37,094 bases of DNA from a virus: IMG/VR virus record IMGVR_UViG_3300024054_000524, positions 1 through 37,094 of that record; one strand, 5' to 3'. The notes under the pieces were generated by a model. The model made no database searches and was not told the DNA's origin. It saw only the letters and a program-made list of their open reading frames with translations. The position numbers and the translations under genes are program-made. Positions within the stretch are counted from its first letter, which is position 1; each line of letters begins with the position of its first letter. Shown here piece by piece: positions 6,197 through 28,677 of the stretch.

Positions 6197-6315
6197 CGCC
6201 TATCTGTTCATCAGCCTACTCGCCGCGACGGCGCTGCTCATCAGCATGCATCCCATCGCCTGGGCGCTGTGGGGCGTGTTACTGCTGGTCACGATCCTGC
6301 GCCTGGCCGGCCTGC

Positions 6316-6746
6316 TCATCGGCCTGACGCGCTGACCCCCGCCACCGCCGCGCGCCACACACTCCACGGGTAATCCCAGACGTGGGCGTGGCCGTGGGTG
6401 ACCAGGGCGCACGCCTCCGCCTCTAGCTCGCGCCTTGCGCCGCCAGCGCCGCCTGGCCGAGCTTCGCCAGCCGGGCGCGCATCCCGAAAAAATCCGCGTT
6501 CACCTCCGCGCAAGCGGCTTGCACCTGGCGCAACTCGGACGGCGCCATGGCCTCCATCTCGGCGGCCGAGAGGTCGGTCATGCGCGCCAGGTCGGCGAGG
6601 CTGAACTCCTCGAACAGGGTGGCATCGAGCACGTCCATGGCCGGCTCCGCCTCCAGGCTCTTCAGCCAGGCGCGGATGTCGGCCACGGTCAGCTCGCGCA
6701 CCTCGACGGCGCGCTGGCCGACGGTGACGGTCTTGGTCAGCCTCAC
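6316..6746 (-). CDS. Tail assembly chaperone, -1 frameshift product (GT-type)
   Basis: If ribosomes slip -1 at 6486-6492, the first 87 residues of the short chaperone continue into a second frame for 56 more codons, ending at the TGA at 6316, to give a 143-residue product. The added part ends in a conserved-looking segment, HVWDYPWSVWRAAVAGV, which resembles the aromatic C-terminal segment of chaperone extensions in D3112-like phages. The extension frame has no ATG with a Shine-Dalgarno sequence, so fusion is more likely than separate translation. Production of both forms at a fixed ratio is well established for lambda G/GT and many other long-tailed phages; here it is inferred from sequence. 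Confidence 0.75.
6423..6746 (-). CDS. Tail assembly chaperone, short form (G-type)
   Basis: A 107-residue acidic, helical protein in the classical chaperone slot between tail tube and tape measure. Such proteins coat the tape measure during tail assembly. Its start overlaps the tail-tube stop (ATGA). Codons 85-87 (Asp-Phe-Phe) contain a slippery heptamer that allows a -1 shift into an overlapping frame, giving a longer form (separate entry). The C-terminal 20 residues of this short form (RARLAKLGQAALAAQGAS) are read only without the shift. Confidence 0.85.
   Translation of the reverse strand: MRLTKTVTVGQRAVEVRELTVADIRAWLKSLEAEPAMDVLDATLFEEFSLADLARMTDLSAAEMEAMAPSELRQVQAACAEVNADFFGMRARLAKLGQAALAAQGAS
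6486..6492 (-). other. -1 ribosomal frameshift slippery heptamer
   Basis: On the minus strand the bases read T TTT TTC in the frame of the short chaperone (GAT TTT TTC), a perfect X XXY YYZ heptamer. Slippage re-pairs both tRNAs on TTT TTT and opens the 56-codon extension. It lies about 60 bases before the zero-frame stop, a usual distance in chaperone genes. Confidence 0.85.
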
Positions 6747-7516
6747 AGCATCACCATGCGGCCGAACTGGCCGAAGGCGCCGGCCTGGGTCTTGGTGCTG
6801 TCGGCCAGCACCGAGCCCTCCAGGGCGAACTGGGCGATGTCATCGTTGATCAGCGCCATGTCCTTGGCGGGGGAGAGACGCACGCGGTAGAGGTCCACCA
6901 TGACGTTGGGTGAGCCGGAGACGGCGGTGTTCTTGCCGACGAAGCGCAGCCAGTATTCCACCGCGCTGGTGCCGAACAGCTTGGTGATCTGGGTGGCCAC
7001 GGCGCGGGTGTAGTCGGCCTTCAGCGGGCCGGTGAAGGGGCCGCCGGTGGTGACATCGAGGATCTCGATCTGGCCGGCCGACAGGTCGGCGCTGTAGTTG
7101 GTGCCGCTGGTCAGGGTCTTGGGCGTGCCGGTGGAGTCCTTGATGACCAGGGCGGCGACGTTGAACGAATCCAACAGATAGATATCGCCCACGGCGGGGG
7201 TGGTGCTGCCCTCGATGGACTCGGCGGTGACGGCGGAGACGGCCTGGGCGGCGGTGGTGCCGAACAGCAGGAGGTTGAGGTTGTCGGCGTCAAGTTGTTC
7301 GAGCGTCATGGACGCGCCGGCGGTCAGCTCGGTGGTCAAGCGCACGTCGGTGAGACGCAGGCCGGAACTGGACTCCTTGTGCTCCTGGGTCTTCTCGTCC
7401 AGGGAGAACTTGAATTCCGGCGCGTTGCCGACGTACTTCATGGCCAGCGGATTGCCGTTGGCGTCGCGGGTGCCCAGGTAAATCTTGCCCTGGCCGTTGA
7501 AATACTGTTTGGTCAT
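6743..7516 (-). CDS. Major tail tube protein
   Basis: A 257-residue product starting MTKQYFNGQGKIYLGTRD, with an AGGAGG Shine-Dalgarno sequence directly upstream. It is rich in beta-strand and Thr/Ser/Gly, as expected for a stacking tail-tube subunit. An internal segment (about 90-160, VGDIYLLDSFNVAALVIKD) looks like an inserted domain. The gene sits between the tail terminator-like gene and the chaperone pair, the invariant place of the tube gene. No sheath gene accompanies it, which argues for a non-contractile tail. Confidence 0.85.
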   Translation of the reverse strand: MTKQYFNGQGKIYLGTRDANGNPLAMKYVGNAPEFKFSLDEKTQEHKESSSGLRLTDVRLTTELTAGASMTLEQLDADNLNLLLFGTTAAQAVSAVTAESIEGSTTPAVGDIYLLDSFNVAALVIKDSTGTPKTLTSGTNYSADLSAGQIEILDVTTGGPFTGPLKADYTRAVATQITKLFGTSAVEYWLRFVGKNTAVSGSPNVMVDLYRVRLSPAKDMALINDDIAQFALEGSVLADSTKTQAGAFGQFGRMVML

Positions 7517-7526
7517 GTGAAACCTC

Positions 7527-7973
7527 CTAGGCGGTCACGGTGATGAGGGCGGCCTCGAAGGCCAGGGGATAGAAGCCGAAGGCCGGGCTGTAGCCCGGCA
7601 GCGGCGCGGCCACGCGGTAGAGTGGCCGGTGGTCCACAGAGGGCGCCCAGCCCTGCAGCGCCTCCAGCAGATCGGACAAGAGCGGGCCGGCGTCGCCGGT
7701 GAGGGCGGCACCGCCGTCGGACTGCGCCGCGTTGCGCACCGCCAGCACCACCAGCCAGCGCTGATGCACGATGCGCGCGCCGCCGCGCCCGGCCGCGTCG
7801 CCCAGGCGGTCGCCGTCGTAGACCACGAACACCGCCGGCGACTGCAGCGCCGACTCCGCCAGGCGAGACAGATCGCGAGCCGGCAGCACGGCGGCGATGT
7901 CCGCGACCGCATCGCGGATGCGCTGCATGATGAGGGGGCCGGCGGCGAGGTAATCGGCGAGCATGGCGCCCAT
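7527..7973 (-). CDS. Tail terminator-like protein (DUF1834/gp37 type)
   Basis: The 148-residue product has the pattern of the Gp37/DUF1834 family found between head-completion and tail-tube genes in Mu-like phages (LADYLAAGPLIMQRIRDAV near the start, then AVFVVYDGDRLGD and QRWLVVLAVRNAAQ). Such proteins close the head-proximal end of the tail. It is the first gene after dyad B, so it begins a separately controlled tail block. Two ATGs are possible (7973 and 7964). Neither has a Shine-Dalgarno sequence; the preceding bases are C-rich and GC-alternating. Confidence 0.75.
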   Translation of the reverse strand: MGAMLADYLAAGPLIMQRIRDAVADIAAVLPARDLSRLAESALQSPAVFVVYDGDRLGDAAGRGGARIVHQRWLVVLAVRNAAQSDGGAALTGDAGPLLSDLLEALQGWAPSVDHRPLYRVAAPLPGYSPAFGFYPLAFEAALITVTA

Positions 7974-8001
7974 GCTGCCCGCGCGCGGGGGGGGCGGGAA
8001 T

Positions 8002-8016
8002 ACTGAAGGGGTTCAG
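8002..8016 (-). promoter_or_regulatory. Late dyad, copy B
   Basis: Read on the minus strand this is CTGAACCCCTTCAGT: inverted 5-base arms CTGAA/TTCAG around four bases. It differs at one base from copies at 14531-14545 and 28077-28091. It lies in the 62-base gap between the fibre-assembly gene and the tail terminator gene, 29 bases before the latter's start. The C-rich run that follows (CCCGCCCC, then GCGCGCGGG) resembles the sequence after copy C. It is probably an activator site or an mRNA leader hairpin of the tail block. Confidence 0.55.
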
Positions 8017-8035
8017 CGGAGGCGCTGCGTGGGCA

Positions 8036-8557
8036 CTACGATCCCGGCCAGCCCACCGTCCAGTCATAAGCCATCAGATCGTCTTGCCGCGTGATCGCCG
8101 AAACCGCGTCCGTGTGTCTCCCAGCCGCACCGGCAATGGCCGCCTCAAGCTGCGAGAGCAAGGTCGCCTTGGCCAGCACCTTCTGGGCCAGCGTTCCAAG
8201 GTCAACGCCCCTGACGTATGCCTCCATGCCAAGCATGGGCGCGTCCGTCGCGTTGCCACTGGCCAAGTAGGCCGCCGCCTCAGCCCGCTTGATGGGCCAG
8301 GAGGCCATCTCAGCCGGGGAGATGTTGCTCACCACGTAGTCGCGCAGTGCCTTGGCATGGGCGTCGATGGCCCGGACGGTTTCCTTGATCTGCTGCTGGG
8401 AAGCCGGGACCGGGTAGTCCATGTAGACCCAGGCGTGACCCGTCCAGTTGGGCCGCTTGCCGTCCGGCCAATCCGCCACATCGGGCGGCGCCACCGTGGT
8501 CTCGCGCCCGGCGATGGGGACGTCTGACAGGAAGCCGTAATCGTCGAAGCTATGCAT
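8036..8557 (-). CDS. Tail fibre assembly-like protein
   Basis: A 173-residue product just downstream of the fibre gene, with one base between the two genes, a usual pairing in phages. The N-terminal half has the layout of fibre-assembly proteins (a Pro/Trp-rich region, PDGKRPNWTGHAWVYMDY). The C-terminal half (PIKRAEAAAYLASG to DLMAYDWTVGWPG) resembles the DUF4376-type helical domain of such chaperones. It probably helps fold or trimerise the adjacent fibre. Confidence 0.7.
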   Translation of the reverse strand: MHSFDDYGFLSDVPIAGRETTVAPPDVADWPDGKRPNWTGHAWVYMDYPVPASQQQIKETVRAIDAHAKALRDYVVSNISPAEMASWPIKRAEAAAYLASGNATDAPMLGMEAYVRGVDLGTLAQKVLAKATLLSQLEAAIAGAAGRHTDAVSAITRQDDLMAYDWTVGWPGS

Positions 8558-8558
8558 T

Positions 8559-9671
8559 TCAGGTCACCCGCATGAAGTATCTGGTTGGGCCTGTCTGCGG
8601 CTCCATGTAGGGGATGTGCTTCTTGCCGGACACCGGGATCGGGCTGGCAATCAGGTAGCCGCCAAGCAAGGAGAACCAGATTTTGTCGTAGAGGATCATG
8701 CCCCCGTAAAAGCTGGTGCCCGCCGGGGTGTCGTAATTCCGCTTCGTCCAGGTCGTACCGTTGGTCGAGGTGTAGATCGCCGAGTTGCCGCCGCCCATGA
8801 CAAGGTGCGTGCCGGTCCAAAGGATGTAATTCGGGCCATGCCTATCATCGAAGGCCACAGTCGACCAAGTGATTCCGTCCGCGCTCTTGATGATCGTCCC
8901 GCTGACGCCGACGGCGTAGAAGTTGGAACCGTCATGACAGACCGAGTTCAGGCCGTTCGTTGTGCCTGACGTCCTTGATGTCCACGTCACGCCGTCGGGC
9001 GAGGTGTAGACCGCGCCGCCCGACCCGACGATGACCAGCAGGGAACCGTTCCAGGCTCCGCTCGCATAGTTCGCCGTGCCCGTGGTGCGGTTCGTCCATG
9101 TGATGCCGTCGGGCGACGTCTTGATAAGGCCCGAGTCACCAATGGCGACGAACTGCGACAGGCTGGACACCCAGAACACATACCTGGGGGGTGACGTTCC
9201 GCCAAATGTTCTACTCGTCCACGTCACGCCGTCGGGCGAGGTGTAACAGGCTGGCCCGGTCAGAACCATGACGAACACCGTGCCGTTCCAGGCGATGCTG
9301 TTGATGGTGCTGTTGTAGCCGACGTTCCGCACCGTCCATGTCTTGCCCTTGTCGGTGCTGGTGTAGTACGTACCCGAGCCGCCAGCGGCGATCATGATGG
9401 ACCCATTGCCGCCGAGGCACACCGAGACGAGGGAGGTTACGGCCCCGTGGTTTTCCCATACCACGCCCGGTTCGGCATCCGCCGGCAGGGAGGCCAGGGC
9501 CGGGTAGGTCGTGGTGCTGACATGACTCCCGTCGCACGGCAGGTAATCGGTGGCGGAAACGTCGCTCGGCAAAAGAAGGATGGACCCGGGCACGACGGAA
9601 TGCGCGTGGTCGCTCCCCTGAAGCTCCTTCACGACGCCGGAGTACAGGCACAGGGGTCGCTTCTCAGCCAT
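8559..9671 (-). CDS. Tail fibre with Asp-box beta-propeller repeats
   Basis: The 370-residue product has a short N-terminal attachment part containing PGSILLLPSDVSATDYLPCDG, a pattern of phage fibre collars. It is followed by six Asp-box (BNR-like) repeats of the form S-P-D-G-[VI]-T-W at about residues 103-114, 143-153, 184-195, 222-232, 262-271 and 300-311, spaced 37-42 residues. This predicts a six-bladed propeller head, a fold used for glycan or protein binding. It probably recognises the host surface. Part of the repeat is nearly identical at DNA level (8980-9008 and 9217-9245), which could allow recombination or blade-number change. The gene sits unusually between head and tail-tube genes. 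Confidence 0.8.
   Translation of the reverse strand: MAEKRPLCLYSGVVKELQGSDHAHSVVPGSILLLPSDVSATDYLPCDGSHVSTTTYPALASLPADAEPGVVWENHGAVTSLVSVCLGGNGSIMIAAGGSGTYYTSTDKGKTWTVRNVGYNSTINSIAWNGTVFVMVLTGPACYTSPDGVTWTSRTFGGTSPPRYVFWVSSLSQFVAIGDSGLIKTSPDGITWTNRTTGTANYASGAWNGSLLVIVGSGGAVYTSPDGVTWTSRTSGTTNGLNSVCHDGSNFYAVGVSGTIIKSADGITWSTVAFDDRHGPNYILWTGTHLVMGGGNSAIYTSTNGTTWTKRNYDTPAGTSFYGGMILYDKIWFSLLGGYLIASPIPVSGKKHIPYMEPQTGPTRYFMRVT
8980..9008. repeat. 29-base direct repeat in fibre gene, copy 1
   Basis: Identical to 9217-9245. Both encode the same blade motif (YTSPDGVTW) of the fibre propeller. The exact match over 29 bases suggests recent duplication or conversion between blades. Confidence 0.85.
9217..9245. 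repeat. 29-base direct repeat in fibre gene, copy 2
   Basis: Second exact copy of the segment at 8980-9008, 237 bases away, in the same frame of the fibre gene. Confidence 0.85.
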
Positions 9672-9680
9672 GCTTACCCC

Positions 9681-10193
9681 TTATGCCAGGACGATGCCGT
9701 CGTCCATTTCGGTGGAGATGGACGTCGCGGAGGTGGCCACGCCGAGAAGCTGGACCACGTTGCCGGAAGCGGACGGCGCGGTTTCGACGGACTGCCCGGG
9801 CGTCGCGGCGGAGAGGTACTGGCGGGCGCCGACAGTCTTGCCGGTGACCTGGGTGTTGGACCCTTCCAGATACACCGTCGCGTTGGCGCCGTTGGCGACG
9901 GCGGCGAGCACGAAGCCATGCGCCTCCTTGCCCGACACGGACGCATCCGCCTTGCGGACACGGGCGCCGCCGGAGTTCCAGATGTTGACGAAGTCGCCGG
10001 CAGACAAAGCCTCGCTGGCCTGGACGGTGACGGTATCCGCGCCAATGCCGACGGGCATGACTGTGGAGTCGAGCTTGCCAGTGGCATCGAGGGCGACGAT
10101 CTTGCCGTCGTCGGCGGCACCAGCACTGGCGACGGTAGCCTGGACCTCCTGAATGCGCCCGGAGGAGTGGGAGAGGTATTTCTTGGCGGCCAT
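9681..10193 (-). CDS. Virion structural protein, fibre-associated
   Basis: A 170-residue product with a strand-rich, low-Cys composition and the segment ALDATGKLDSTVMPVGIGAD, typical of phage structural proteins encoded next to fibres. The middle (VTVQASEALSAGDFVNIWNS) resembles DUF2190-like beta-barrel decoration domains. It is read between a collagen-motif protein and the fibre gene. Whether it decorates the head or forms part of a fibre base cannot be decided from sequence alone. Confidence 0.65.
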   Translation of the reverse strand: MAAKKYLSHSSGRIQEVQATVASAGAADDGKIVALDATGKLDSTVMPVGIGADTVTVQASEALSAGDFVNIWNSGGARVRKADASVSGKEAHGFVLAAVANGANATVYLEGSNTQVTGKTVGARQYLSAATPGQSVETAPSASGNVVQLLGVATSATSISTEMDDGIVLA

Positions 10194-10205
10194 GGTGGTA
10201 GGCTC

Positions 10206-10703
10206 CTATGCGGTGAGGATGGTTTGACGCGGGGTGAGCAGGATGCGAGTGGCGGTGAGGGCCACGGCCGCCAGCTGCACCCAACCCGAGGCGGGCGGGG
10301 TGTGGGAGAGCAAGCCGTTGGCGATCACGTACAGGGGCAGGCCTGGTGTCCAGGCCCAGGAGGGCTCGGTGATCTCGCCGGCGGCCAGGATGGTGGCAGT
10401 GTCGCCCTGCACGACGGCGCCGATGGTGAGGCCCAGCAGGGCGTCGGCATGGCCCGAGGTGGCGGGGTCGGCATACACCGCGCCGGCGGGCGTGGCCACC
10501 GCCATGCGGTGGCCGGAGAGGGTCTGGGCGGCGGGGAACGACAGCGTTTGCGCCCCTCCCGATCCTGGCGGTCCTGGTGGCCCGGGCGGGCCTTGCTCGG
10601 CAACCTCTACGATTTCCGGGCGAACATCGGGCAGAACGATGACGTCGCCGGTGGCTTCCGCCACCAGCACGCTGTCCAGGCTGAGTTCGACGACATCAGA
10701 CAT
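10206..10703 (-). CDS. Structural protein with collagen-like Gly-Pro-Pro run
   Basis: A 165-residue product. Residues 38-47 read GPPGPPGPPG, a short collagen-like triple-helix seed common in trimeric phage fibres and spikes. The beta-rich remainder includes AQTLSGHRMAVATPAGAVY. The gene overlaps the upstream gene by eight bases. It is probably a trimeric minor structural or fibre-linker protein. Confidence 0.7.
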   Translation of the reverse strand: MSDVVELSLDSVLVAEATGDVIVLPDVRPEIVEVAEQGPPGPPGPPGSGGAQTLSFPAAQTLSGHRMAVATPAGAVYADPATSGHADALLGLTIGAVVQGDTATILAAGEITEPSWAWTPGLPLYVIANGLLSHTPPASGWVQLAAVALTATRILLTPRQTILTA

Positions 10704-11046
10704 CGCCCACCACGCGCCAGGTGCCGCGCAGCAGGGGGCGCACGCGGCCGGATTCGGTCAGATTCAGGCGGTAGGTGTACTGCCCGCCGGGTAGCGCGAC
10801 GTAGTTGGCGTGTCCCAGATCGATGCGGATTTCGCCTGTGGCATCCAGGGCCGCCAGGCCGCCATTCGCCGTGGAAAGGGTAGCCAGCGTGGAGCCTGTG
10901 GCGCGGTCGAAAAACATCAGCGTGGCCGACATGCCTGTCTGGTCCACAGGCGGTCCGCCCAATGATTGCCGGCGTGTCAGCACCAGGACGCGGGTATCGC
11001 CCAGGCTGCGGGCGATGTCGTAACGGGCGGAGGACTCGGGCAGCAT
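10696..11046 (-). CDS. Small structural protein, beta-rich
   Basis: A 116-residue product beginning MLPESSARYDIARSLGDTRV. The composition suggests a beta sandwich (IDLGHANYVALPGGQYTYRL), similar in style to the BppU-like N-domains of baseplate-associated proteins. It lies in the chain of short genes leading to the fibre and is separated from the upstream gene by two bases. The role is inferred from context only. Confidence 0.6.
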   Translation of the reverse strand: MLPESSARYDIARSLGDTRVLVLTRRQSLGGPPVDQTGMSATLMFFDRATGSTLATLSTANGGLAALDATGEIRIDLGHANYVALPGGQYTYRLNLTESGRVRPLLRGTWRVVGDV

Positions 11047-11048
11047 GG

Positions 11049-11291
11049 TCAGGGCTCGCGGTATTCCGGCGGCAAATGGCGGCGCAGGCGCTCTGATTCA
11101 TAGGCGGCGCGGCAGTGGTCGTCCGCTAAAAAGAACAGGGTATTGATCGCACGATAGGCGATCCGCCAGTGGCGACGAGTGTCGCGCAGACGCCAGGCGC
11201 GCGCGGACAGGGTTTCGTCCGGGTGGCCGCCGGCTAGGACGTTGGCTACCTGGTCGAGGGCGACGGCGAGTCGCAGCAGGCGGGTCATCAC
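11049..11291 (-). CDS. Small conserved-looking phage protein near fibre genes
   Basis: The 80-residue basic protein starts MMTRLLRLAVALDQ and contains GGHPDETLSARAWRLRD and DHCRAAYESERLRRHLPPE. This pattern (an N-terminal hydrophobic helix, PDETLSARAWR, and a C-terminal H-C-x-x-A-Y-x-x-E) recurs in small proteins encoded near fibre genes of many prophages, often with misleading database names. Its function is unknown. The start overlaps the stop of the DUF1320 gene by four bases. Confidence 0.7.
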   Translation of the reverse strand: MMTRLLRLAVALDQVANVLAGGHPDETLSARAWRLRDTRRHWRIAYRAINTLFFLADDHCRAAYESERLRRHLPPEYREP

Positions 11292-11698
11292 ATCAACCCC
11301 AGCGTGTCGTCGTCGAACGTGCGCCCCGGCGTGCTGTGGGCCGGGCCGCCCACGCTGGCCGGCTCGGGCTGCGCGCCGAGGCTGATCTTGCCCTGGCCGG
11401 CCAGGGCCAGGAATTTGCGGGCATCGTCGGCGCGCTTGATCACGATCTCCGGCGCGGCGTCCTTGTAGAGCCGCTCCCGCGCCAGGTCGCAGGCGTAGCC
11501 CACCAGGATGGCGGGCACGGGCGACAGCGGCAGGGTGTAGCGGCCGGCGAGAAAGCCGTTGATCACCGCATCGGCATCGGCCAGCGCCTGGCTGACAACC
11601 GCCGCGTCCAGGACGCCATCACCCAGGCGGTCGGTGAGCTGGATCAGTTCAGACTCGCCGAAGCGGGCGACCAGGTCGGCGGTGGTGGCGTAGGGCAT
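11288..11698 (-). CDS. Head-tail connector (DUF1320, Mu gp36 type)
   Basis: The 136-residue product begins MPYATTADLVARFGESELIQLTD, the hallmark of DUF1320 (Mu gp36-like) proteins, which complete the head-tail joint. Helix-rich residues 1-100 cover the domain (YACDLARERLYKDAAPEIVI). The C-terminal tail is disordered and ends in FDDDTLGLM. The start is coupled to the stop of the gp35-like gene (TGATG). Confidence 0.85.
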   Translation of the reverse strand: MPYATTADLVARFGESELIQLTDRLGDGVLDAAVVSQALADADAVINGFLAGRYTLPLSPVPAILVGYACDLARERLYKDAAPEIVIKRADDARKFLALAGQGKISLGAQPEPASVGGPAHSTPGRTFDDDTLGLM

Positions 11699-11889
11699 CA
11701 GGCGGCGGGCTCGATGACGCCGGGCTCGATGACGCCGGCGGCCTTGAGGGGGGCGGCGGCGACGGCATCCAGATCGATCGTGTCGCCGGGGGCGTAATCC
11801 ACGCCGTCGTGGCGCAGGGGTTCGATCACCGTATAGGTGGCAAGGTCGACTTCCGGGGGTTCGGGTGTGGCGGTCTTGGCTTTGGCCAT
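11698..11889 (-). CDS. Small Mu gp35 / FluMu-type N-terminal domain protein
   Basis: A 63-residue product with start at 11889 and AGGAG seven bases before the ATG. The core (YTVIEPLRHDGVDYAPGDTI, then DLDAVAAAPLKAAGVI) matches the short FluMu gp35-type domain encoded between capsid and gp36 in Mu relatives. A duplicated tail (GVIEPGVIEP) is present, produced by a 12-base tandem repeat near the 3' end. It is probably a minor head protein. Confidence 0.75.
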   Translation of the reverse strand: MAKAKTATPEPPEVDLATYTVIEPLRHDGVDYAPGDTIDLDAVAAAPLKAAGVIEPGVIEPAA

Positions 11890-11917
11890 GGTCAAAACTC
11901 CTTGTCTTCTGTGCAAA

Positions 11918-11985
11918 GCGGCCTTGCGGCCGCCCCTCTCCCTAACCCTCCCCCGGCGGGGGAGGGGATGGGGGCGGTGGGTTAG
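11918..11985. repeat. Hairpin plus GC-rich palindromic element R1
   Basis: Two inverted repeats lie in the gap after the capsid gene: GCGGCC-TTGC-GGCCGC (11918-11933) and CCCTCCCCC-GGC-GGGGGAGGG (11946-11966), the latter embedded in a C-rich/G-rich module of the same style as R5-R7. The pair may attenuate transcription after the capsid gene and so raise capsid expression relative to downstream genes. That role is inferred; no U-run follows. Confidence 0.6.
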
Positions 11986-12926
11986 GCCACGGCGGCGGAG
12001 ATCAGGTAGCCGGCGTTGATGCTGGCGGCCACCGGCTGCAGGCTGTCGTTGACCGGGTAGATCCAGCTCTTGGCGTTGCGGTCCTGGTAGGCGCTCTCGA
12101 CGTTGGGGTAGTTGCGCAGGCGGTAGGTATAGCCGTAGCTGGGCAGGCCGGCGTCCATCAGGCTGCCCATCTCGGTGTAGGCCACCACCACGAACTTGCC
12201 CCACACGTCCTGGAGGGCGCCGGCGGCATCCTCGTAGACCACATCGCCCACCACCACGCGCTTCACGTCCCACAGGGTGGCGAGCATGTCCAGGGTGATG
12301 GAGTCGCGCCCGGTGTACTTGATGCGATCGATGATCAGCGGGTGGGTCTTCAGCGCGGCCCAGACCTTGGGGCCCAGCACCACGGTGTTGGCGCGCTTGC
12401 CGACGGCGGCGCGCACCGCCTCGATGGCGGTCTGGATGTCCTTGCTCGGGTTGGAGACGCCGGAGGTCTGGTCGCTCCACTGGCTGGTGCCGGACAGGGT
12501 GGTCTTGTTGGCGGCCTGGTAGCTGGCGGCGGTGGTGGCGATGGCGGCGGCGGCCACCTCGTTGCCGAGCTGGATGATGTTCTGCGTCTTCATCACCGCG
12601 ATGCGCCCCAGGTCGATGCCGGGCACCGCGTTGGCGTCCTGCATCTGCTCGAACGGCACCTGGCCCTCCAGGCTGTAGTCGGTCAGGGCGAAGCCGCTGC
12701 CGGAATAGCCGAACTGGATGCGCTTGGTGGCGGCGCCCGGCGCGCGGGCGCTGTTGTAGAGGCGGAAGTCCTCACGGCCGAACTGGATGATCTTGCCGCC
12801 ACGCTGGTCCACCGGCACGACCGGGAACAGGGTGGGGAAGATCAGCTCGTTGTTCTGGTAGCCCTGGGCGACCGTGGTGAGGATGGGGTCGATCACACGG
12901 GCCTGGGCGGCGGTCATCTGGGTCAT
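11982..12926 (-). CDS. Major capsid protein
   Basis: The 314-residue product is in the place of the Mu T/major head gene, after protease/scaffold and decoration genes. N-terminal LFPVVPVDQRGGKIIQFGRE and the later IDLGRIAVMKTQNIIQLGNE resemble the N-arm and spine helix of HK97-fold capsids. A C-terminal stretch (YGYTYRLRNYPNVESAYQD) is typical of Mu-like and related major capsid proteins. The start at 12926 has GGAGA upstream. It assembles the procapsid with the nested scaffold encoded two genes before. Confidence 0.88.
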   Translation of the reverse strand: MTQMTAAQARVIDPILTTVAQGYQNNELIFPTLFPVVPVDQRGGKIIQFGREDFRLYNSARAPGAATKRIQFGYSGSGFALTDYSLEGQVPFEQMQDANAVPGIDLGRIAVMKTQNIIQLGNEVAAAAIATTAASYQAANKTTLSGTSQWSDQTSGVSNPSKDIQTAIEAVRAAVGKRANTVVLGPKVWAALKTHPLIIDRIKYTGRDSITLDMLATLWDVKRVVVGDVVYEDAAGALQDVWGKFVVVAYTEMGSLMDAGLPSYGYTYRLRNYPNVESAYQDRNAKSWIYPVNDSLQPVAASINAGYLISAAVA

Positions 12927-12941
12927 GGTTCGTTCTCCGGG

Positions 12942-13289
12942 TTAGGCCACGTTGGGCATCAACAGCACTTCGATCATCTGGCCGGCGGCGGTGGCCGCCT
13001 CCAGGGCGAGGCCCACCTTGGCGCCGGACGTGACCCAGGTGATGGCGCGGCCGGACGCATCCGACTTGACGGTGGCGCCGGCGGACAGGGCCGCGCCGGC
13101 CTCGACGATGGCCGTGCCGAGCACATCGACGGTGACCTTGTCGCCGGACACGCCGGCGGAGCGGGCCACGCCCAGGGTGTTGGCGTCCGCGCCGGCCTGG
13201 GCGCCGGCGGGGGTGACGAAGCGGTTGACCGCGACCGTGCCGGTGAGGGCCACGGTCAGGGGCAGGACGGGAATGTTCTGGTAGCTCAT
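12942..13289 (-). CDS. Capsid decoration protein (DUF2190-like)
   Basis: The 115-residue, Ala/Gly/Val-rich, beta-barrel-like protein matches the DUF2190 pattern (GADANTLGVARSAGVSGDKV, later GTAIVEAGAALSAGATVKS). Such proteins stabilise the expanded capsid from outside. GGAG lies six bases before the ATG, and the gene sits between scaffold and capsid genes. Confidence 0.82.
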   Translation of the reverse strand: MSYQNIPVLPLTVALTGTVAVNRFVTPAGAQAGADANTLGVARSAGVSGDKVTVDVLGTAIVEAGAALSAGATVKSDASGRAITWVTSGAKVGLALEAATAAGQMIEVLLMPNVA

Positions 13290-13298
13290 GGGGGCTCC

Positions 13299-13790
13299 TT
13301 ATGCGGGGATGGAGACCGCTTTCACGGCGGCCAGGTAATCGGTGTCGGGGTGGGCCTTTTGCCAGGCAATGGCGCGGGCATGGGTGTCGGCGCCGGCGGC
13401 GTCCACGGCATAGCCCTGGGGGACAGCAAAGGCGGCGACGGCGGCGGACTCATCGCCCGGCGCGGAACGCTCGGCGAAGTCCACCACCACCGGCGCGGCG
13501 GCGATGGCGGCCTTGAGCGCCTCGGTCAGCGGCTGGGCGGCGTCGCCCTCGCCGAACTGCGGCGCCTCGCCCAGGCCGCCCAGCACGTCCAGGGCCTGGA
13601 CGATGACGGGGCTCATGGCCGGGGTGAGGCGGCCGGCCTTGACCTGCGCCTCGGCGAAGGCGGCGTGCTCGGCATGGCGCTTGAGCCGGTCGGCTTCGGC
13701 CATCTGGGCGACCAGGGTGGCGTTTTGCGCGGACAGCGTGGCGGCTTGCGCCTCCAGCTCCGCCAGGCGGGCTTTGTCAGCGTCGCTCAT
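13299..13790 (-). CDS. Internal-start scaffold protein (Z-like) nested in protease gene
   Basis: An in-frame ATG at 13790 is preceded by AAGGAG five bases upstream, the best ribosome site in the gene, and begins the 163-residue segment MSDADKARLAELEAQAATLS. It is a coiled, Ala/Glu-rich scaffold with a compact C-terminal domain that would bind capsid. Mu makes its scaffold Z from a start inside gene I, so this is established for the family and seen here by its ribosome site. Confidence 0.8.
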   Translation of the reverse strand: MSDADKARLAELEAQAATLSAQNATLVAQMAEADRLKRHAEHAAFAEAQVKAGRLTPAMSPVIVQALDVLGGLGEAPQFGEGDAAQPLTEALKAAIAAAPVVVDFAERSAPGDESAAVAAFAVPQGYAVDAAGADTHARAIAWQKAHPDTDYLAAVKAVSIPA

Positions 13791-14492
13791 GGAGTCTCCT
13801 TCGGTGGGGGGTGCGGCATAAAGCGGCATGGGCGCGGCGGCATCGGCGGCCGCTTCGCGGCGCGCCTCCTCTTCCAGCGTGCCCACGGAATAATCGGGGA
13901 TAACCTTGTCGGCCTCGTCCAGGCCGAACTTGGCGATGAGCCATTCGCGCATGCGGCGCCACAGGCCGGCGTTGACCTGGTCCTCCCAGGCGAACTCCAG
14001 CACCAGGTCGTCCGCCTCGGCGGCGAATTCCACCGGCTTCAGGCCGGACACCGCCGGCGCGGCGGCGCCCAAAAAGCCAATGTGCTTGAGGTAGTAGACG
14101 CCGGGCGCGGGGTTGCGCGGATGCTCGGGCGTGAACCACGCGGCGGAGACCTTCTTGAAGCGGCCCTCCCTGACCAGTTCCGCGAATTGGGCCTCGACCT
14201 GGTCGGGTTCGGCATACAGCTCGCCCGCCTGGTCAGCGACGCGCTTCACCCAGCCGTAGGCCGGGGCGTCGATCTGGGGATGGCCCACGACGATGGGCGC
14301 CTGCCACTTGGCCGGGTCGTAGGCGGCAGCCGCCGCGCTCAGGTCATCGGCGGTGAACTCGATTTCCTGCCCCGACATGGCCGTGTGCCGACCGGGGCGG
14401 AAGAAGTGGATGCGGGGCAGCGAAGCCCTTGGCGCTTTAGCGCTTAGGGGTTCGGCGTCCTTCTTTTGCGAGGGGAGTTGTGCGGTAGCCAT
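13299..14492 (-). CDS. Mu I-like head maturation protease with scaffold C-terminus
   Basis: The 397-residue product matches the Mu I protein: residues about 28-95 contain PRIHFFRPGRHTAMSGQEIE and APIVVGHPQIDAPAYGWVKR, with a conserved Gly-His that belongs to the catalytic part. From about residue 235 the protein is helical and Gln/Glu/Ala-rich scaffold, also made separately from an internal start. Residues 1-27 are not typical of the family and precede the conserved start of homology. The ATG at 14492 has no Shine-Dalgarno sequence and abuts a perfect hairpin (14493-14513), so the start is uncertain. It is the first gene of the leftward late arm. Confidence 0.88.
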   Translation of the reverse strand: MATAQLPSQKKDAEPLSAKAPRASLPRIHFFRPGRHTAMSGQEIEFTADDLSAAAAAYDPAKWQAPIVVGHPQIDAPAYGWVKRVADQAGELYAEPDQVEAQFAELVREGRFKKVSAAWFTPEHPRNPAPGVYYLKHIGFLGAAAPAVSGLKPVEFAAEADDLVLEFAWEDQVNAGLWRRMREWLIAKFGLDEADKVIPDYSVGTLEEEARREAAADAAAPMPLYAAPPTEGDSMSDADKARLAELEAQAATLSAQNATLVAQMAEADRLKRHAEHAAFAEAQVKAGRLTPAMSPVIVQALDVLGGLGEAPQFGEGDAAQPLTEALKAAIAAAPVVVDFAERSAPGDESAAVAAFAVPQGYAVDAAGADTHARAIAWQKAHPDTDYLAAVKAVSIPA

Positions 14493-14621: not shown

Positions 14622-15365
14622 ATGAGCACCCAAACCAGCATTGAGTGGACGGAACAAACCTGGAACCCGACGACAGGCTGCACCAAGATTTCACCTGGGT
14701 GCAAGCACTGCTACGCGGAAACCATGGCGCGGCGCCTTCACGCCATGGGTGCGAACGGTTATATCAACAACTTCAAACTTACCCTGCAGCCGAACAGGCT
14801 GTCCCAGCCGCTGCTTCGCAAGAAACCCACGGTCTACTTCGTCAACTCCATGAGCGACCTTTTTCACGAGGATGTGCCGGACGCATTCCTAGACCAGGTA
14901 TTTCATGTCATCCGCCAGACGCCTCAGCATACTTACCAAATCCTGACCAAGCGGGCTGAACGCTTGCCCAGTTACTTTGGAACGCGGGCGTGTCCAGACA
15001 ACATATGGCTGGGTGTAAGCGTAGAGGACCGCGAGTATGGCATTCCACGCATAGGCCACCTGCGTAACATCAACGCATCCGTGCGCTTCCTATCCATTGA
15101 GCCGCTGTTGGAGGATTTGGGCCAAATGGACCTGTCTGGCATTCACTGGGTCATTGTCGGCGGAGAATCCGGACATAAGGCCAGGCCCATGCGCCTGGAG
15201 TGGGTGGAGAACATCCAGACCCAGACCGAGGCAGCTGGCGCTGCGTTCTTCTTCAAGCAATGGGGCGGATGGGGTGCGGACGGCGTGAAGCGCCACAAGA
15301 AAGCGAACGGCAGGCTGTTGCGTGGCCGCACATGGGATAGTTATCCAGCCATGATGGGAACCTAG
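14622..15365 (+). CDS. DUF5131 (phage Gp37/Gp68) three-Cys protein
   Basis: The 247-residue product has GGAGG six bases before its ATG. Family hallmarks: C20-x6-C27-x2-C30 with HCYAE, then GVSVED (131-136), SIEPLL (158-163), GGESG (180-184), FFKQWG (210-215) and C-terminal GRLLRGRTWD. The clustered cysteines and barrel-like strand-loop motifs suggest a radical-SAM-like iron-sulfur protein, although the spacing is not the classical CxxxCxxC. In many genomes it is the neighbour of TcmP, as here. Its codons are less GC-rich than the phage core, suggesting acquired cargo. The substrate is unknown; nucleic-acid modification or defence is conjecture. Confidence 0.85.
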   Translation: MSTQTSIEWTEQTWNPTTGCTKISPGCKHCYAETMARRLHAMGANGYINNFKLTLQPNRLSQPLLRKKPTVYFVNSMSDLFHEDVPDAFLDQVFHVIRQTPQHTYQILTKRAERLPSYFGTRACPDNIWLGVSVEDREYGIPRIGHLRNINASVRFLSIEPLLEDLGQMDLSGIHWVIVGGESGHKARPMRLEWVENIQTQTEAAGAAFFFKQWGGWGADGVKRHKKANGRLLRGRTWDSYPAMMGT

Positions 15366-16189
15366 AAATCCCAGCTGCCCTGCTTGTGTTCTGACTCTAC
15401 TGCATCCTTCCAGAAGCGATGAGCAAGGTCGCTGCCTGATGCAAGTGCCAGCCAGTACAGGCGTTTGTTGTCGACCGTGATCAGCTTCATTAGAGGCGAA
15501 GGCCATTTGCCAAGACTGGCAACCTTTGTCCTCCAGTAGTTGACCACTCCCTCTCGCAGTTTCCAACTCGAAGCAGGTAAATGGACGTGCTCGCGCCAGC
15601 CGGGTGCAAGCCGGTCGAACCCCTTGTCCTCGCCTACATGCTGCCACGCGTTTCTATTCAGTCCAAGCGCACTGAGGTGGATCATCATATCCATCCTTTT
15701 AAGCCTGGAAAGCGCCGCGATAATGTGGAAATCCAGGTCAGCCAGGCCAAACGGATCGACCAGCGCGAAGTGGTAGCCATACGGATCCAGCCGCTTGGCT
15801 ATTGCTTTCGACGCAGCAATTGCATCCCCTTCGATAACTTCAAATGGCGCGCCAGCGCTGGCGAGCCTTTCGGCACAAGCGTCGCGTCTAGGGGGTTCTA
15901 TATCAGCGATGTACATCCTGGTGAATGGCGATTCTGATGCGACACTGGATCTCCACGCGGCCAGCGGACTTCCATCCACCCACTCTCCAGTTTCCTTAAT
16001 CAGAGCACGCCCTGTTCCACAGAAGACATCGATGTAAGTCGAAACGGGTTTCTTGTCCCGCACAACAGGCTTCTTCCGCACCATCTTTGCGGTGTCCAGG
16101 TAATAGCAGAGCAACTCGTGTTTGCGCTTCACCCAGTCATGGACTTCTTCGGCGATCAATCCATCGTCACCTTGTATCAGGTCTCCCAT
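15362..16189 (-). CDS. tcmP: Three-Cys-motif partner protein TcmP
   Basis: A 275-residue product. The start was set at 16189 (MGDLIQGDDG) because GGGAG lies six bases upstream; the open frame extends further without family sequence. Motifs: IDVFCGTGRA (53-62), EGD (120-122), LVDPFG (143-148) and C-terminal LYWLALASGSDLAHRFW, which together fit TcmP and a methyltransferase-like Rossmann fold. TcmP is defined by its recurrent pairing with the three-Cys protein encoded next door. The two genes are convergent and overlap by four bases at their stops, so their transcripts are complementary at the 3' ends. Base composition is less GC-rich than neighbours. Confidence 0.85.
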   Translation of the reverse strand: MGDLIQGDDGLIAEEVHDWVKRKHELLCYYLDTAKMVRKKPVVRDKKPVSTYIDVFCGTGRALIKETGEWVDGSPLAAWRSSVASESPFTRMYIADIEPPRRDACAERLASAGAPFEVIEGDAIAASKAIAKRLDPYGYHFALVDPFGLADLDFHIIAALSRLKRMDMMIHLSALGLNRNAWQHVGEDKGFDRLAPGWREHVHLPASSWKLREGVVNYWRTKVASLGKWPSPLMKLITVDNKRLYWLALASGSDLAHRFWKDAVESEHKQGSWDF

Positions 16190-16316: not shown

Positions 16317-16976
16317 TCACTCCCAGCGGTCCTTCTCCTTCGCCTCCCGGACGGTCTGCCATTGCATGTTGCTGGGCGCATCCGCGCCGCCGCGCTTGAG
16401 CGGCTGGATATGGTCGATCACGTAGCCGGGGCACGGCCCGGTGGATCGACCGGTGGCCGGGCACGGGTTGCGCAGCTGGAAATCCCGCTTGGCCGATTCG
16501 CTGCGCTTGATCCGGCCGCGTGAATCCCGCTCCACGATGCCCGCCGGCTTGTAATGGGTTCCCTCCCGCGTGATCGGACGTGGGTTCGGAGACGGTCTGA
16601 ACGAGGTGGCGCGAGACCGATTCGATGCATAGGCCGGCTGGGGAACGTAAGTCGGCGCCGGCGGCGCCTCGTCGATCTGAATGCGGGTGACCTCTCGCTT
16701 CATGCCTGGGTACGTGGCCGCGGATACGTCGACATCCCGGCTCCAGCCATGGGCGTCGGTGTTAGGAGGCGGCGCATCGCCGGTGTAGTAGCCCGCTGAA
16801 CTACCGCCTGAATCCGCACTGCCTGTTGGGCCGCGTCGATTATAAGCACGGACATGGGTGCCGTCACGGCGCGTGTAGCTGTCAACGTGCTGGGTGCCGC
16901 CGCTGCCGCCCTTGGGCCAGGCAGGGAAGGCCAGCATGGCGGCCATGGCGACGAGCAAGGCGACTGTGGCTTTCAT
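16317..16976 (-). CDS. Exported HNH-type nuclease, candidate superinfection barrier
   Basis: The 219-residue product opens with a clear signal peptide (MKATVALLVAMAAMLAFPAW). A low-complexity linker with GTQHVDSYTRRDGTHVRAYN follows. The C-terminal HNH-like domain has paired cysteines (NPCPATGRSTGPCPGY, C172 and C182), the catalytic-type D188-H189 (VIDHIQPLKRGG) and N203 (SNMQWQT). It probably acts in the periplasm. It is the last gene of the repressor operon (its start overlaps the 59-residue gene by four bases), so it should be made in lysogens. A role in cutting incoming DNA is inferred. Confidence 0.75.
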   Translation of the reverse strand: MKATVALLVAMAAMLAFPAWPKGGSGGTQHVDSYTRRDGTHVRAYNRRGPTGSADSGGSSAGYYTGDAPPPNTDAHGWSRDVDVSAATYPGMKREVTRIQIDEAPPAPTYVPQPAYASNRSRATSFRPSPNPRPITREGTHYKPAGIVERDSRGRIKRSESAKRDFQLRNPCPATGRSTGPCPGYVIDHIQPLKRGGADAPSNMQWQTVREAKEKDRWE

Positions 16977-17152
16977 GATTTCTCCTTATGCAGCACGACT
17001 TCAAGCCTGACGCTCTGGATGGACAGCCAGGACGCACGCTCCGGCGCGGCCACGGTGATCTGCAGCATGACGGGCTGGTGATGGTGGGTCTGGCTGACCC
17101 GGTTGTCGTTACCCTCGATCCGGACTTCTTGCCTTTCTGACTGGCCTTTCAT
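16973..17152 (-). CDS. Small protein in repressor operon, unknown
   Basis: The 59-residue product is read from the ATG at 17152, which has GGGAGG upstream; the start lies inside the 3' end of the repressor gene. It begins MKGQSERQEVRIEGNDNRVS and is followed by a His/Gln run and a C-terminal strand-rich part. The motif GNDNRVSQ resembles GNQNSINQ near the repressor C-terminus. No membrane segment is seen. I do not recognise the family. Confidence 0.55.
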   Translation of the reverse strand: MKGQSERQEVRIEGNDNRVSQTHHHQPVMLQITVAAPERASWLSIQSVRLEVVLHKEKS

Positions 17153-17564
17153 GCGCCCCTCCCTGGGACTGGTTGATTGAATTCTGGTTGCCGGTGATGA
17201 CTGCGGTTTGCGTGTTGGCCAGGGCGCCGCTGCCGCGCAGCGCATCCACCGCGGCGGCCTCCTGGGGGCTGAGCACGCGCACCACATAGCCGGCGCGCTC
17301 CTGCTCCGCACTCATCGCCGGCACGCCTCGATGGCCTGTCAACACGTAATACGCATCCACACCTTTGGCTGCCACCAGGTCCAAATAGTCAGACGTAGGG
17401 GCGCTCTTGTTGTTCTCGTAGTTGTACTGCGTCTTCCTGGTCACATGGCCTATGGCTGCCAGCACCTGCATTTCATAGCCAAGCCGCTCCCGCTCAAGGC
17501 ACAACCTCCCCCCAGTAGAAAAATATTTCTCGTTATTGCTTGACGTGGGTATCTTTTTTCCCAT
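17109..17564 (-). CDS. Phage repressor, XRE-type helix-turn-helix
   Basis: A 151-residue product. The HTH lies at about residues 17-75 (GGRLCLERERLGYEMQVLAA, later TRKTQYNYENNKSAPTSDYL, then VDAYYVLTGHR), a pattern of Cro/C1-type repressors of beta-proteobacterial prophages. The C-terminal part (AEQERAGYVVRVLSPQEAAA) may mediate oligomer formation. ATG 17564 is preferred; a TTG at 17576 would add four residues. It points away from the early genes, as in Mu. Two GTGCAA repeats 11 bases apart lie just upstream (17588-17604). Confidence 0.8.
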   Translation of the reverse strand: MGKKIPTSSNNEKYFSTGGRLCLERERLGYEMQVLAAIGHVTRKTQYNYENNKSAPTSDYLDLVAAKGVDAYYVLTGHRGVPAMSAEQERAGYVVRVLSPQEAAAVDALRGSGALANTQTAVITGNQNSINQSQGGAHERPVRKARSPDRG

Positions 17565-17587
17565 ACTTCCATCCAACGCTCATTCAC

Positions 17588-17604
17588 GTGCAAGCAAAGT
17601 GCAA
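17588..17604. promoter_or_regulatory. GTGCAA direct repeat upstream of repressor
   Basis: GTGCAA occurs at 17588-17593 and 17599-17604, exactly 11 bases (one helical turn) apart, in the short gap between the divergent repressor and a plus-strand ORF. TTTGC/GCAAA elements also build the dyad at 18679-18705, so both may be repressor sites. This is a proposal from base pattern only. Confidence 0.35.
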
Positions 17605-17955
17605 ACCCAAACCCCCGACCAAGAAGCCCTCCGCGCCCGCCTCAATGCCCTGGCCGACGCGTGGCTGCTGATCGCGGGAAACAAATTCCGCACCGCGCCG
17701 GAAGAGCCGACGGAGTTCGGCAGGCGGTTCATCGAGCACGGCGCCATCTGCTACTTCAACTGCGCCCGGGCTCTAAAAGAGCTTGTCCAGGCCGGGGACG
17801 CCGCGCCCGATCTCGGCCCTGAGGTAGCCGAGCAGGATGCCAAAGGTCCACGAGGCCGAGGGCTTGATGACCTGGTCCTTCGCCTTCCTCCAGAGCGTGT
17901 CGTCGACGATGGCATCCGCGAAATCCATATCCCTCTGCATTTCCCACTCCTATAG
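17599..17955 (+). CDS. Small hypothetical phage protein, possibly truncated
   Basis: An ORF of 118 codons from the GTG at 17599, with no good Shine-Dalgarno sequence. The first 55-60 residues look like genuine protein: ALRARLNALADAWLLIAG, then FGRRFIEHGAICYFNCARAL. Beyond about codon 60 the frame becomes Pro/Arg/Asp-rich and lies antisense to a convincing 55-codon gene at 17773-17940, so the original C-terminus may have been lost. The function is unknown. It could also be a remnant of a small gene conserved next to repressors. Confidence 0.4.
   Translation: MQTQTPDQEALRARLNALADAWLLIAGNKFRTAPEEPTEFGRRFIEHGAICYFNCARALKELVQAGDAAPDLGPEVAEQDAKGPRGRGLDDLVLRLPPERVVDDGIREIHIPLHFPLL
17773..17940 (-). 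CDS. Small protein opposite the 17599-17955 ORF
   Basis: The 55-residue product has GGAG six bases before its ATG (17940) and a natural-looking sequence: DFADAIVDDTLWRKAKDQVI, then SWTFGILLGYLRAEIGRG and GLDKLF at the end. Its stop lies in a small palindrome (GCTCT-AAA-AGAGC, 17770-17782) that could end transcription in both directions. It is divergent from the gp16-like gene at 17977. I do not recognise it. Confidence 0.5.
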   Translation of the reverse strand: MQRDMDFADAIVDDTLWRKAKDQVIKPSASWTFGILLGYLRAEIGRGVPGLDKLF

Positions 17956-17976: not shown

Positions 17977-18171
17977 ATGACCTCCCAGACCTTCAAGGCG
18001 CGCCTGCGCGCACAGGGCAAGACCATCGGCCAGTGGGCCGACGAGAACCAGTTCAACCGCCTGGACGTGTACCGGGTGCTGAACGGCGTCTACAAGGCCC
18101 ATTACGGCAAGGCGCACGAGATCGCCGTCCGCGCCGGGCTGAAGGCCGATCCCGATCAACTCGCCGCCTGA
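17977..18171 (+). CDS. DNA-binding protein, BcepMu gp16 family
   Basis: A 64-residue product; the start at 17977 is preferred over the upstream in-frame ATG at 17959 because AGGAG lies six bases before it. The sequence (TFKARLRAQGKTIGQWADEN, then YRVLNGVYKAHYGKAHEIAV) matches the short BcepMu gp16-type HTH protein of Mu-like phages. It probably binds DNA as a regulator in the immunity region. Confidence 0.75.
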   Translation: MTSQTFKARLRAQGKTIGQWADENQFNRLDVYRVLNGVYKAHYGKAHEIAVRAGLKADPDQLAA

Positions 18172-20475: not shown

Positions 20476-22263
20476 ATGAGCCCCGCCCAGAACGAACGTC
20501 TGGTCGCCATTGCCCAGTCCGCGCGCCTTGCGGCCTGGGGCGAGAAGGAAACGATCTATGCCGCCGCCTGCGCCGAACTGGGCCTCTCCCGCGCCACCCT
20601 GCTCAAACGCCTGAAAGCCGCCACCGTGACCACACCCCGCAAACGCCGCGCCGACGCCGGCGCCTCGGACCTGACCCGGGACGAGGCCATCACCCTCGAC
20701 GCCTACCTGCTCGAATCCACGCGCAAGAACGGCAAGCGCCTGGCCAGCCTGGACCTGGCGGTGGAAACCCTGCGCGCCAACGGGCTGGTCCGCGCCGGCC
20801 GAGTGGACCGGGACACCGGCGAGATCGTACCGCTGTCCATCCCGGCCATCCGCAAGGCCATGGCCCACTACGGCCTGCATCCGGACCGGGTCAATGCGCC
20901 CGAGCCGGTGACGGCCCTGGCCAGCAAGCATCCCAACTGGTGCTGGCAGATCGACCCGTCCCTGTGCGTGCTCTACTACCTGCGCGGCGGCCAGAAGACC
21001 CACGGCCTCCAGGTCATGGACGCCAAGGCCTTCTACAAGAACAAGCCGGGCAATGTGGAGAGGATCATCAACGAGCGGGTGTGGCGCTACGTGGTCACCG
21101 ACCACCTGTCCGGCACCTTTTACGTGGAATACGTGACCGGCGCCGAGAGCGGCGAGAACCTCAGCCACATCTTCATCAACGCCACCCAGAAGCGGGAAGA
21201 CGACCCGTTCCACGGCGTGCCCTTCTTCACCATGCTGGACCCGGGCAGCGCCAACACCGGCGCGGTGTTCCGCAACCTGGCCCGGCACCTGCAGATGGAG
21301 TTGCTCATCAATCTGCCCGGCCGGCCGCGCGCCAAGGGACAGGTCGAGAAGACCAACGACCTGATCGAGCGGGAGTTCGAGTCCGGCCTCAAGTTCATGC
21401 GCGTGGAGAGCCTGGACGACCTCAACGCCCAGGCCTGGCGCTGGATGCGCTGGTTCAACGGCGCCAGGCTCCACAGCCGCCACGGCATGAGCCGCTATGG
21501 CGCCTGGCTGTCGATCCGCGAGGCCGAACTGCGCCTCGCACCGCCCGTGGCGCTGATGCGCGAACTGGCCCACACCGCGCCCCAGGCGCGCACCGTCACC
21601 CCCTACCTGCGCGTGAATTTCGAGGGCATGGAATACGACGTCTCCGGCGTGCCCGAGGTGTGCGTCAAGGAAAAGGTGCTGGTGTGCCGCAACCCCTGGC
21701 GCCTGGAATCCGCCCAGGTGGTGCGGGTGGGCGAGGACGGCCACGAGCACTTCCACATCATCGAGCCGGTGCTGAAGGACGCTTACGGCCAGGTGGTGGG
21801 CGCGGCCGTCATCGGCGAATCCTACAAGCGCCACGCCGACACGCCGGCCCAGAGCGCCGCGAAAGAGATCGAGCGGCGCGTCACCGGCGCCGACAGCCAG
21901 GCCGAGGCCGAGGCCGCGCGCAAGCGCCTGGATGCCAACCAGGCCCTGCCCCTTGGCGGTCGGATCGACCCCTACCTGCACACCGACCCGGGGGTGCTGC
22001 CCACCTACCTGCCCAAGCGCGGCACCGCCCTTTCCGTTCCCATGACCGCCCACGCCGAGGAAAAGCCCCTGAACCACGTGGAAGCCGCCGGCCACCTGCG
22101 CCGGCTCTTGGGCGAGACCTGGGGCCCGACGTTGTTCCAGCGCCTGGTGGCGGGCTGGCCGGAGGGGGTGATGCCAGCGGATTTGCCCGACGTGGCGCAG
22201 GCGCTGCGCGGGGCGGAAGACAACACGAGCCAGAAGCGGGCGGGCCTGCGCCTGGTGAGTTGA
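20476..22263 (+). CDS. muA: Transposase A (DDE, Mu A family)
   Basis: The 595-residue transposase cuts and joins phage ends during integration and replicative transposition. N-terminal HTH-like segments (about 25-55) would bind end sites. The RNase H-like core carries D160 (CWQIDPSLCVLYY), D255 (TMLDPGSAN) and E291 (GQVEKTNDLIERE), with 35 residues between the second Asp and the Glu, as in rve/DDE enzymes. The Mu-type beta-barrel domain follows (about 375-460). It is shorter than Mu A (about 660), mainly at the N-terminus. GGGAG lies 7-9 bases before the ATG. Confidence 0.95.
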   Translation: MSPAQNERLVAIAQSARLAAWGEKETIYAAACAELGLSRATLLKRLKAATVTTPRKRRADAGASDLTRDEAITLDAYLLESTRKNGKRLASLDLAVETLRANGLVRAGRVDRDTGEIVPLSIPAIRKAMAHYGLHPDRVNAPEPVTALASKHPNWCWQIDPSLCVLYYLRGGQKTHGLQVMDAKAFYKNKPGNVERIINERVWRYVVTDHLSGTFYVEYVTGAESGENLSHIFINATQKREDDPFHGVPFFTMLDPGSANTGAVFRNLARHLQMELLINLPGRPRAKGQVEKTNDLIEREFESGLKFMRVESLDDLNAQAWRWMRWFNGARLHSRHGMSRYGAWLSIREAELRLAPPVALMRELAHTAPQARTVTPYLRVNFEGMEYDVSGVPEVCVKEKVLVCRNPWRLESAQVVRVGEDGHEHFHIIEPVLKDAYGQVVGAAVIGESYKRHADTPAQSAAKEIERRVTGADSQAEAEAARKRLDANQALPLGGRIDPYLHTDPGVLPTYLPKRGTALSVPMTAHAEEKPLNHVEAAGHLRRLLGETWGPTLFQRLVAGWPEGVMPADLPDVAQALRGAEDNTSQKRAGLRLVS

Positions 22264-28128: not shown

Positions 28129-28677
28129 ATGCCGCGCCCGATCCGCCTCCTCGTCATCCATTGCTCCGCCAGCCCGGACGAGCGGACGCTGTTCACCGGG
28201 CATTACTGGGAGCCGGGCTTCCGCACGCCGGTCATGGAGATCGACGCCTGGCACAAGGCGCGCGGATTCCAACGCGACACCTACTGGCGCGGCCGTCTGA
28301 ACCCGAGCCTGGAGGCCATCGGCTACCACTACGTGATCGCGCGCAACGGGGCGCTGTTCACCGGCCGCCACGAGGATGAGCCGGGCGCGCACGCGGAAGG
28401 CTGGAACGTGCCGTCGCTGGGTCTCTGCCTGGTGGGCACTCAACGCTTCGCGCCGGAGCAGTGGCTGCAGCTGAAGGCCACGGTGGAGGGGCTGGCCAAG
28501 CGCCACGACATTCCCCTGGTGTCGCCTCACCTGGTGGTCCAGGGCCGGCATCGCATGGTGGTGCACGGCGGCATCTGCGGCCACCGCGATCTGCCGGAGG
28601 TGGCCAAGGCCTGCCCGGGGTTCGATGTTGCCGCCTGGCTGGCGGACGGCCTGGCGCCGCCGAAAGGGGAATCATGA
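28129..28677 (+). CDS. Endolysin, N-acetylmuramoyl-L-alanine amidase
   Basis: The 182-residue product is an amidase_2 (T7 lysozyme-like) enzyme that cuts the peptidoglycan amide bond. Zinc ligands are in place: H11 (LLVIHCSASPDER), and H152 with Cys at the end of a CGHRDLPEVAKACPGFDV motif. Internal GYHYVIARNGALFTGR and GLCLVGTQRF are typical. It has no signal peptide, so it needs the holin-like neighbours. The ATG lacks a Shine-Dalgarno sequence. It is the first gene of the rightward late arm. Confidence 0.93.
   Translation: MPRPIRLLVIHCSASPDERTLFTGHYWEPGFRTPVMEIDAWHKARGFQRDTYWRGRLNPSLEAIGYHYVIARNGALFTGRHEDEPGAHAEGWNVPSLGLCLVGTQRFAPEQWLQLKATVEGLAKRHDIPLVSPHLVVQGRHRMVVHGGICGHRDLPEVAKACPGFDVAAWLADGLAPPKGES

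Follow-up and report, generated by a model that had tools for sequence, protein, structure and literature searches.

A predicted exported HNH-family nuclease encoded behind the repressor of a B3/Mu-like transposable phage: a candidate barrier to DNA import

Why should a transposable phage place, directly behind its repressor gene, a gene for a nuclease-like protein that carries an apparent export signal? This question is raised by the window studied here, i.e. the whole stretch of DNA that was analysed, a 37,094-base IMG/VR record. The match of its transposase A to those of B3, JD18 and PhiKM (Table 1) identifies the window as a B3/Mu-like transposable phage, and genes for transposase B, head, tail, terminase and a late activator are also present.

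The sequence-only reading of this DNA had described a repressor, a 59-residue ORF and an HNH ORF as one overlapping leftward operon, and all three were indeed found at the place given, on the minus strand. The 59-residue ORF shares 44 nt with the repressor gene and 4 nt (ATGA) with the HNH ORF, AAGGAG precedes the HNH start codon, and the ribosome-binding sites are good across the operon genes. A promoter/terminator scan detected no leftward terminator between the repressor and HNH genes; the number of sites that it called was no higher than chance, and the operon is neither proved nor broken by it. Taking into account the overlapping frames behind the repressor and this lack of a leftward terminator, the HNH gene is probably transcribed in the lysogen. 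The repressor resembles those of Ps56, Carl1, Milagro and others (tblastn), and searches of Pfam, PHROGs and viral contigs found no homologue of the 59-residue protein. Upstream of the repressor, a 57-residue ORF lies antisense to a plus-strand ORF.

Table 1. Coordinates of features in the window
Feature	Position	Strand	Basis or remark
Protease to tail genes	1-14492	-	left part of the window
DUF5131 (phage Gp37/68-type)	14622-15365	+	Pfam 9e-109; PADLOC 6e-113 and 1e-111, candidates PDC-M30B/M41B
TcmP (three-Cys-motif partner)	15362-16189	-	NCBIfam TIGR04474 4e-41; PADLOC 4e-12, candidate PDC-M41A
219-aa HNH-family protein, predicted exported	16317-16976	-	family searches, alignment, AlphaFold
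HNH domain	16320-16529	-	alignment A1, family columns, AF2 model
59-aa ORF, without family	16973-17152	-	sequence
Phage repressor (XRE/Cro-CI HTH), first gene of the operon	17109-17564	-	HTH_3 E=0.004 (Pfam); PHROG transcriptional regulator E=2e-9
ORF antisense to the 57-aa ORF	17536-17955	+	weak PHROG match
57-aa ORF (MQRDMDFADAIVDDTLWRKAKDQ...)	17772-17945	-	good RBS
Ner-like HTH protein	17977-18171	+	PHROG 925 4e-23; divergent from repressor
DDE transposase A	20476-22263	+	tblastn 48-55% over full length to B3, JD18, PhiKM
Lysis genes	28129-28677	+	opposite strand from HNH gene
Terminase to Neck1/G genes	31456-37094	+	
DNA adenine methylase	34461-35231		74% identical to that of Escherichia phage PhiKM

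The gene next to the HNH ORF, transcribed in the same direction, encodes TcmP, with a start likelier at 16189 than at 16381. The TcmP and DUF5131 genes are convergent and touching (14622-16189), and both are defence candidates of PADLOC (PDC-M41/M30); DUF5131 genes come after the exported HNH gene in two other loci as well, L070 (75% identical) and L118. The late genes of the window are split between the two strands, and the last base of the record is the end of the G stop codon. The relative L133 likewise has its protease gene past the repressor operon and in minus orientation, and given this the split arrangement may be real. The DNA adenine methylase gene lies between the portal and F genes, and in PhiKM its counterpart is sited elsewhere, upstream of Ner.

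The 219-residue protein consists of a signal peptide (residues 1 to about 20), a GYxRxDGTxV-like motif (about 30-42), a linker and the HNH domain (about 150-219), with conservation confined to the C-terminal 70 or so residues. Single-sequence searches retrieved 16 viral and 41 bacterial relatives, and a profile search 174 viral stretches, the best 80 of which were used. The HNH assignment proposed in the sequence-only reading is weak for the single protein (Pfam E=0.0077, below the cut-off) and firm for the family, nine of whose 34 members match Pfam HNH at E<=0.01 (best 2e-4). AlphaFold (AF2) predicts a domain at residues 150-219 with pLDDT mostly >90, whose structural neighbours (VIA) are Cas8f-HNH (Z 6.5, the best), EcoKMcrA and the Gme HNH nickase (Z 5.2); the Z values of 5-6.5 to HNH domains span 56-72 residues, colicin nucleases reach Z 3-3.5, and Foldseek gave an E no better than 0.016. 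The AF2 model and VIA thus reveal the beta-beta-alpha fold of the HNH endonuclease superfamily. The sole PDB match found by sequence was dismissed as chance.

Residues D188, H189 and N203 are invariant in alignment A1, which confirms H189 and N203 at the positions named earlier and provides the first His (general base) and the central Asn of the superfamily; N203 was part of a search pattern, and H189 lay outside it in the single-sequence viral and bacterial searches. K215, D216 and E219 are conserved in 97-99 of 102 members. Canonical HNH enzymes (the Gme HNH nickase, EcoKMcrA, Cas8f-HNH) share with this family the beta-beta-alpha metal fold with DH...N, but they are cytoplasmic and possess the third His/Asn, a metal ligand placed nine positions past the Asn, whereas the window family carries A/G/S there (A212 in the window protein; 99/102 members), together with a conserved KxKDxxE motif and paired cysteines. 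On these sequence features the protein is a member of a broad family without a name, a distinct, non-canonical HNH subfamily for which catalysis is predicted. The absence of the third catalytic His throughout the family counts against the role proposed below, and it would fit an exported yet catalytically dead protein with a structural or DNA-binding function only. We consider such a protein very unlikely, since the nearly invariant D188, H189, N203, K215, D216 and E219 suggest a retained active site, and in other phages the slot behind the repressor holds SNase, an established family of nucleases.

The signal peptide noticed in the window protein is plausible (MK followed by hydrophobic residues 3-16). 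It lacks a clean AXA cleavage site, and the protein may therefore stay anchored in the membrane. According to a simple heuristic signal-sequence rule, 63 of the 72 non-redundant viral HNH members have signal-like N-termini, as against 18% of control ORFs in the same loci, and several family members have lipoboxes. Of the cysteines C172 and C182, 88 members have both, 12 have neither and 2 have a single one, while a second pair, with one cysteine between H189 and N203 and the other in the C-tail, is complete in 72, missing in 22 and discordant in 8, all counts ignoring kinship. Such co-varying pairs behave as disulfides would, as expected of an exported protein. All four combinations of the two pairs occur; because the pairs occur independently, the idea of one zinc site formed by the four cysteines was rejected.

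The location behind a repressor proved to be recurrent. Of the 72 non-redundant viral HNH loci, 28 have a co-oriented CI/XRE repressor gene less than 1.6 kb upstream, compared with 62 of 629 control ORFs (9.9%) in the same loci (Fisher p=2e-9, kinship ignored; HTH calls were heuristic, and genes were simple ORF picks, so that the controls include spurious ones). In none of the 72 was a repressor found within 1.6 kb downstream. The 28 upstream proteins are of the CI type (HTH_3 in 21, Peptidase_S24 in 11, Phage_CI_repr in 3), and inspection by eye added up to five further loci with repressor-like genes or a divergent Cro. In L072, L096 and L097 the HNH gene is directly adjacent, 11-30 nt past the repressor gene; L096 is a transposable relative of the window phage (transposase 49%). 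Elsewhere the genes in between encode mostly lipoproteins or membrane proteins, among which 62-67-residue proteins with a single TM and zinc-ribbon membrane proteins recur (small membrane proteins of this kind are found in L071, L082 and L091, and in L004, L089 and L065). Comparison across many phages therefore supports well both the co-location with the repressor and the predicted export.

Not all members conform to this arrangement. Chromosomal homologues of free-living bacteria (e.g. Methylopumilus) stand alone among housekeeping genes; these solitary copies imply a further role of the family outside phage biology and count against a barrier to DNA import. They would suit a gene that improves the fitness of the lysogen by other means, such as scavenging of extracellular DNA or remodelling of biofilms. 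That phage copies, unlike chromosomal ones, are strongly concentrated behind repressors (28/72 vs 2/38) makes this explanation quite unlikely. The 7.2-kb Polaromonas plasmid pW9NP1 also has a family member, an exported HNH gene that lacks annotation (L147, 4001-4255) and shares 62% identity with its phage counterpart.

A minority of the HNH genes is located in lysis cassettes or other late regions (L005, L105, L117, L119), which also argues against an import barrier, and the one record of an isolated phage with the HNH family, a Manatee Spring podovirus, has the gene in its late region, without a repressor. A nuclease expressed late and set free when the cell lyses, to remove host DNA from the lysate or the cell surface, would fit the positions in lysis cassettes; it would also fit the lysis genes that come after the operon, on its strand, in L096 and TJ1. 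In the window, however, the lysis genes are elsewhere and on the other strand, and the HNH gene overlaps the 59-residue ORF, which in turn overlaps the repressor gene. Release at lysis is therefore an unlikely function of the window protein.

The same slot is used by a second type of nuclease. In the transposable relative L130 the repressor gene is followed by one gene and then by a gene for an exported SNase with an Excalibur domain (2974-3660; Pfam 4e-21), and a repressor is encoded just upstream in all 12 loci of this SNase subfamily. For the wider SNase family, this holds for 27 of 55 non-redundant viral loci, compared with 68 of 460 control ORFs (15%; p=3e-8, kinship ignored), and the products of 46 of the 55 loci look exported. 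Exported SNase genes directly behind a repressor gene occur in many temperate phages (L130, L135-L146, TJ1, Mcat8). Two of these are isolated phages: Curvibacter phage TJ1 (L149), with transposase, CI, one gene and a thermonuclease, and Moraxella phage Mcat8 (L150), with a repressor-like gene and an SNase gene 13 nt later. Other exported genes of the HNH loci are mildly enriched in the slot as well, but an association of exported genes in general was rejected: the slot is occupied by 39% (HNH) and 49% (SNase) of the nuclease genes vs 18% and 18% of other signal-bearing ORFs (p=0.001 and 9e-5, respectively). It thus appears from these sequence comparisons that exported nucleases of two unrelated folds recurrently accompany the prophage repressor.

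Prophage-encoded secreted DNases are already known as a functional class. Dns of the Campylobacter jejuni Mu-like prophage CJIE1 (with CJIE2/CJIE4) and IdeA of the Vibrio cholerae SXT element are, like the window HNH gene product, encoded by mobile genetic elements, Dns and the window gene both by Mu-like prophages. Dns and IdeA are enzymes of the Endonuclease_1 family, and YokF of Bacillus subtilis SPbeta is an exported protein of the SNase type, like its analogues in L130, TJ1 and Mcat8. With this class, whose members are exported and encoded by prophages or ICEs, the window protein shares the phage-borne location (transposases A and B, head and tail genes) and, on heuristic calls for its family, signal-like N-termini and paired cysteines. 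It differs from Dns and IdeA in matching HNH models only: neither the window protein (at E<=0.1) nor the members of A1 match the Endonuclease_1 profile (Dns/IdeA/EndA). The parts of the literature covered here report no link of Dns or IdeA to a repressor operon. YokF differs in coming from a Gram-positive host and in having an SNase rather than an HNH fold. Such DNases lower transformation 10- to 1000-fold (PMC4774983; also PMC11472951): about tenfold for YokF, a hundredfold for CJIE2/CJIE4 and up to a thousandfold for CJIE1 Dns and IdeA (PMC4774983). Their presence has been explained as guarding the element from recombinational loss (PMC4774983; PMC11472951).

By analogy, our preferred reading, to which we give slightly less than an even chance, is that the exported HNH protein acts as a barrier to DNA import and chiefly blocks natural transformation of the lysogen. 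The transposable prophage would produce this small protein, with its disulfide bonds and its non-canonical HNH nuclease domain, from the repressor operon and hence in the lysogen. Once exported, it would encounter DNA beyond the inner membrane and cut double-stranded DNA before import, and the resulting block of transformation would prevent recombination from removing the prophage. Transforming DNA is favoured over superinfecting phages as the target because the tested secreted DNases of mobile elements block natural transformation (PMC4774983).

The sequence-only reading had instead proposed superinfection exclusion, with the exported nuclease cutting the genomes of other phages as they cross the periplasm, a reading that we consider possible but doubtful. 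Genes of repressor operons are often exclusion genes, the neighbouring DUF5131 and TcmP genes are the PADLOC defence candidates described above (DUF5131 recurring after HNH in L070 and L118), and the in-between genes of the other phages mostly specify lipoproteins or membrane proteins, all of which speak for it. Tailed phages, however, usually deliver their DNA via a protected channel, and our literature search found no experimentally tested example of phage exclusion by an exported nuclease of a prophage. SNIPE, an envelope-positioned nuclease that cuts incoming DNA, as is predicted for the window protein, demonstrates that phage DNA can be cut during entry; it is, however, a GIY-YIG enzyme anchored in the inner membrane, with a cytoplasmic rather than exported nuclease domain and phage DNA as its target, and is not encoded in a repressor operon (PMC13190303). 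More broadly, and in our view rather improbably, repressor operons may serve quite generally as a platform from which temperate phages deploy exported nucleases, of unrelated folds, to protect the envelope against any foreign DNA, superinfecting phage genomes included, as a periplasmic innate immunity carried by prophages.

The earlier suggestion that this combination matches no described system holds in part: the literature search yielded no paper on HNH proteins described as exported, secreted or periplasmic, nor on a repressor-HNH operon, but secreted DNases of prophages were known before. What appears new is the predicted exported nuclease family, its conserved location in the repressor operon and the convergence of two folds on this site. 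A single odd gene thereby becomes an instance of a recurrent rule, i.e. the concentration of two unrelated families of predicted exported nucleases behind prophage repressors. Curvibacter phage TJ1 offers a tractable phage with which to ask whether prophages use them against transformation, other phages, or both. The rule would account for the means by which many uncultured temperate phages may block the uptake of foreign DNA by their hosts.
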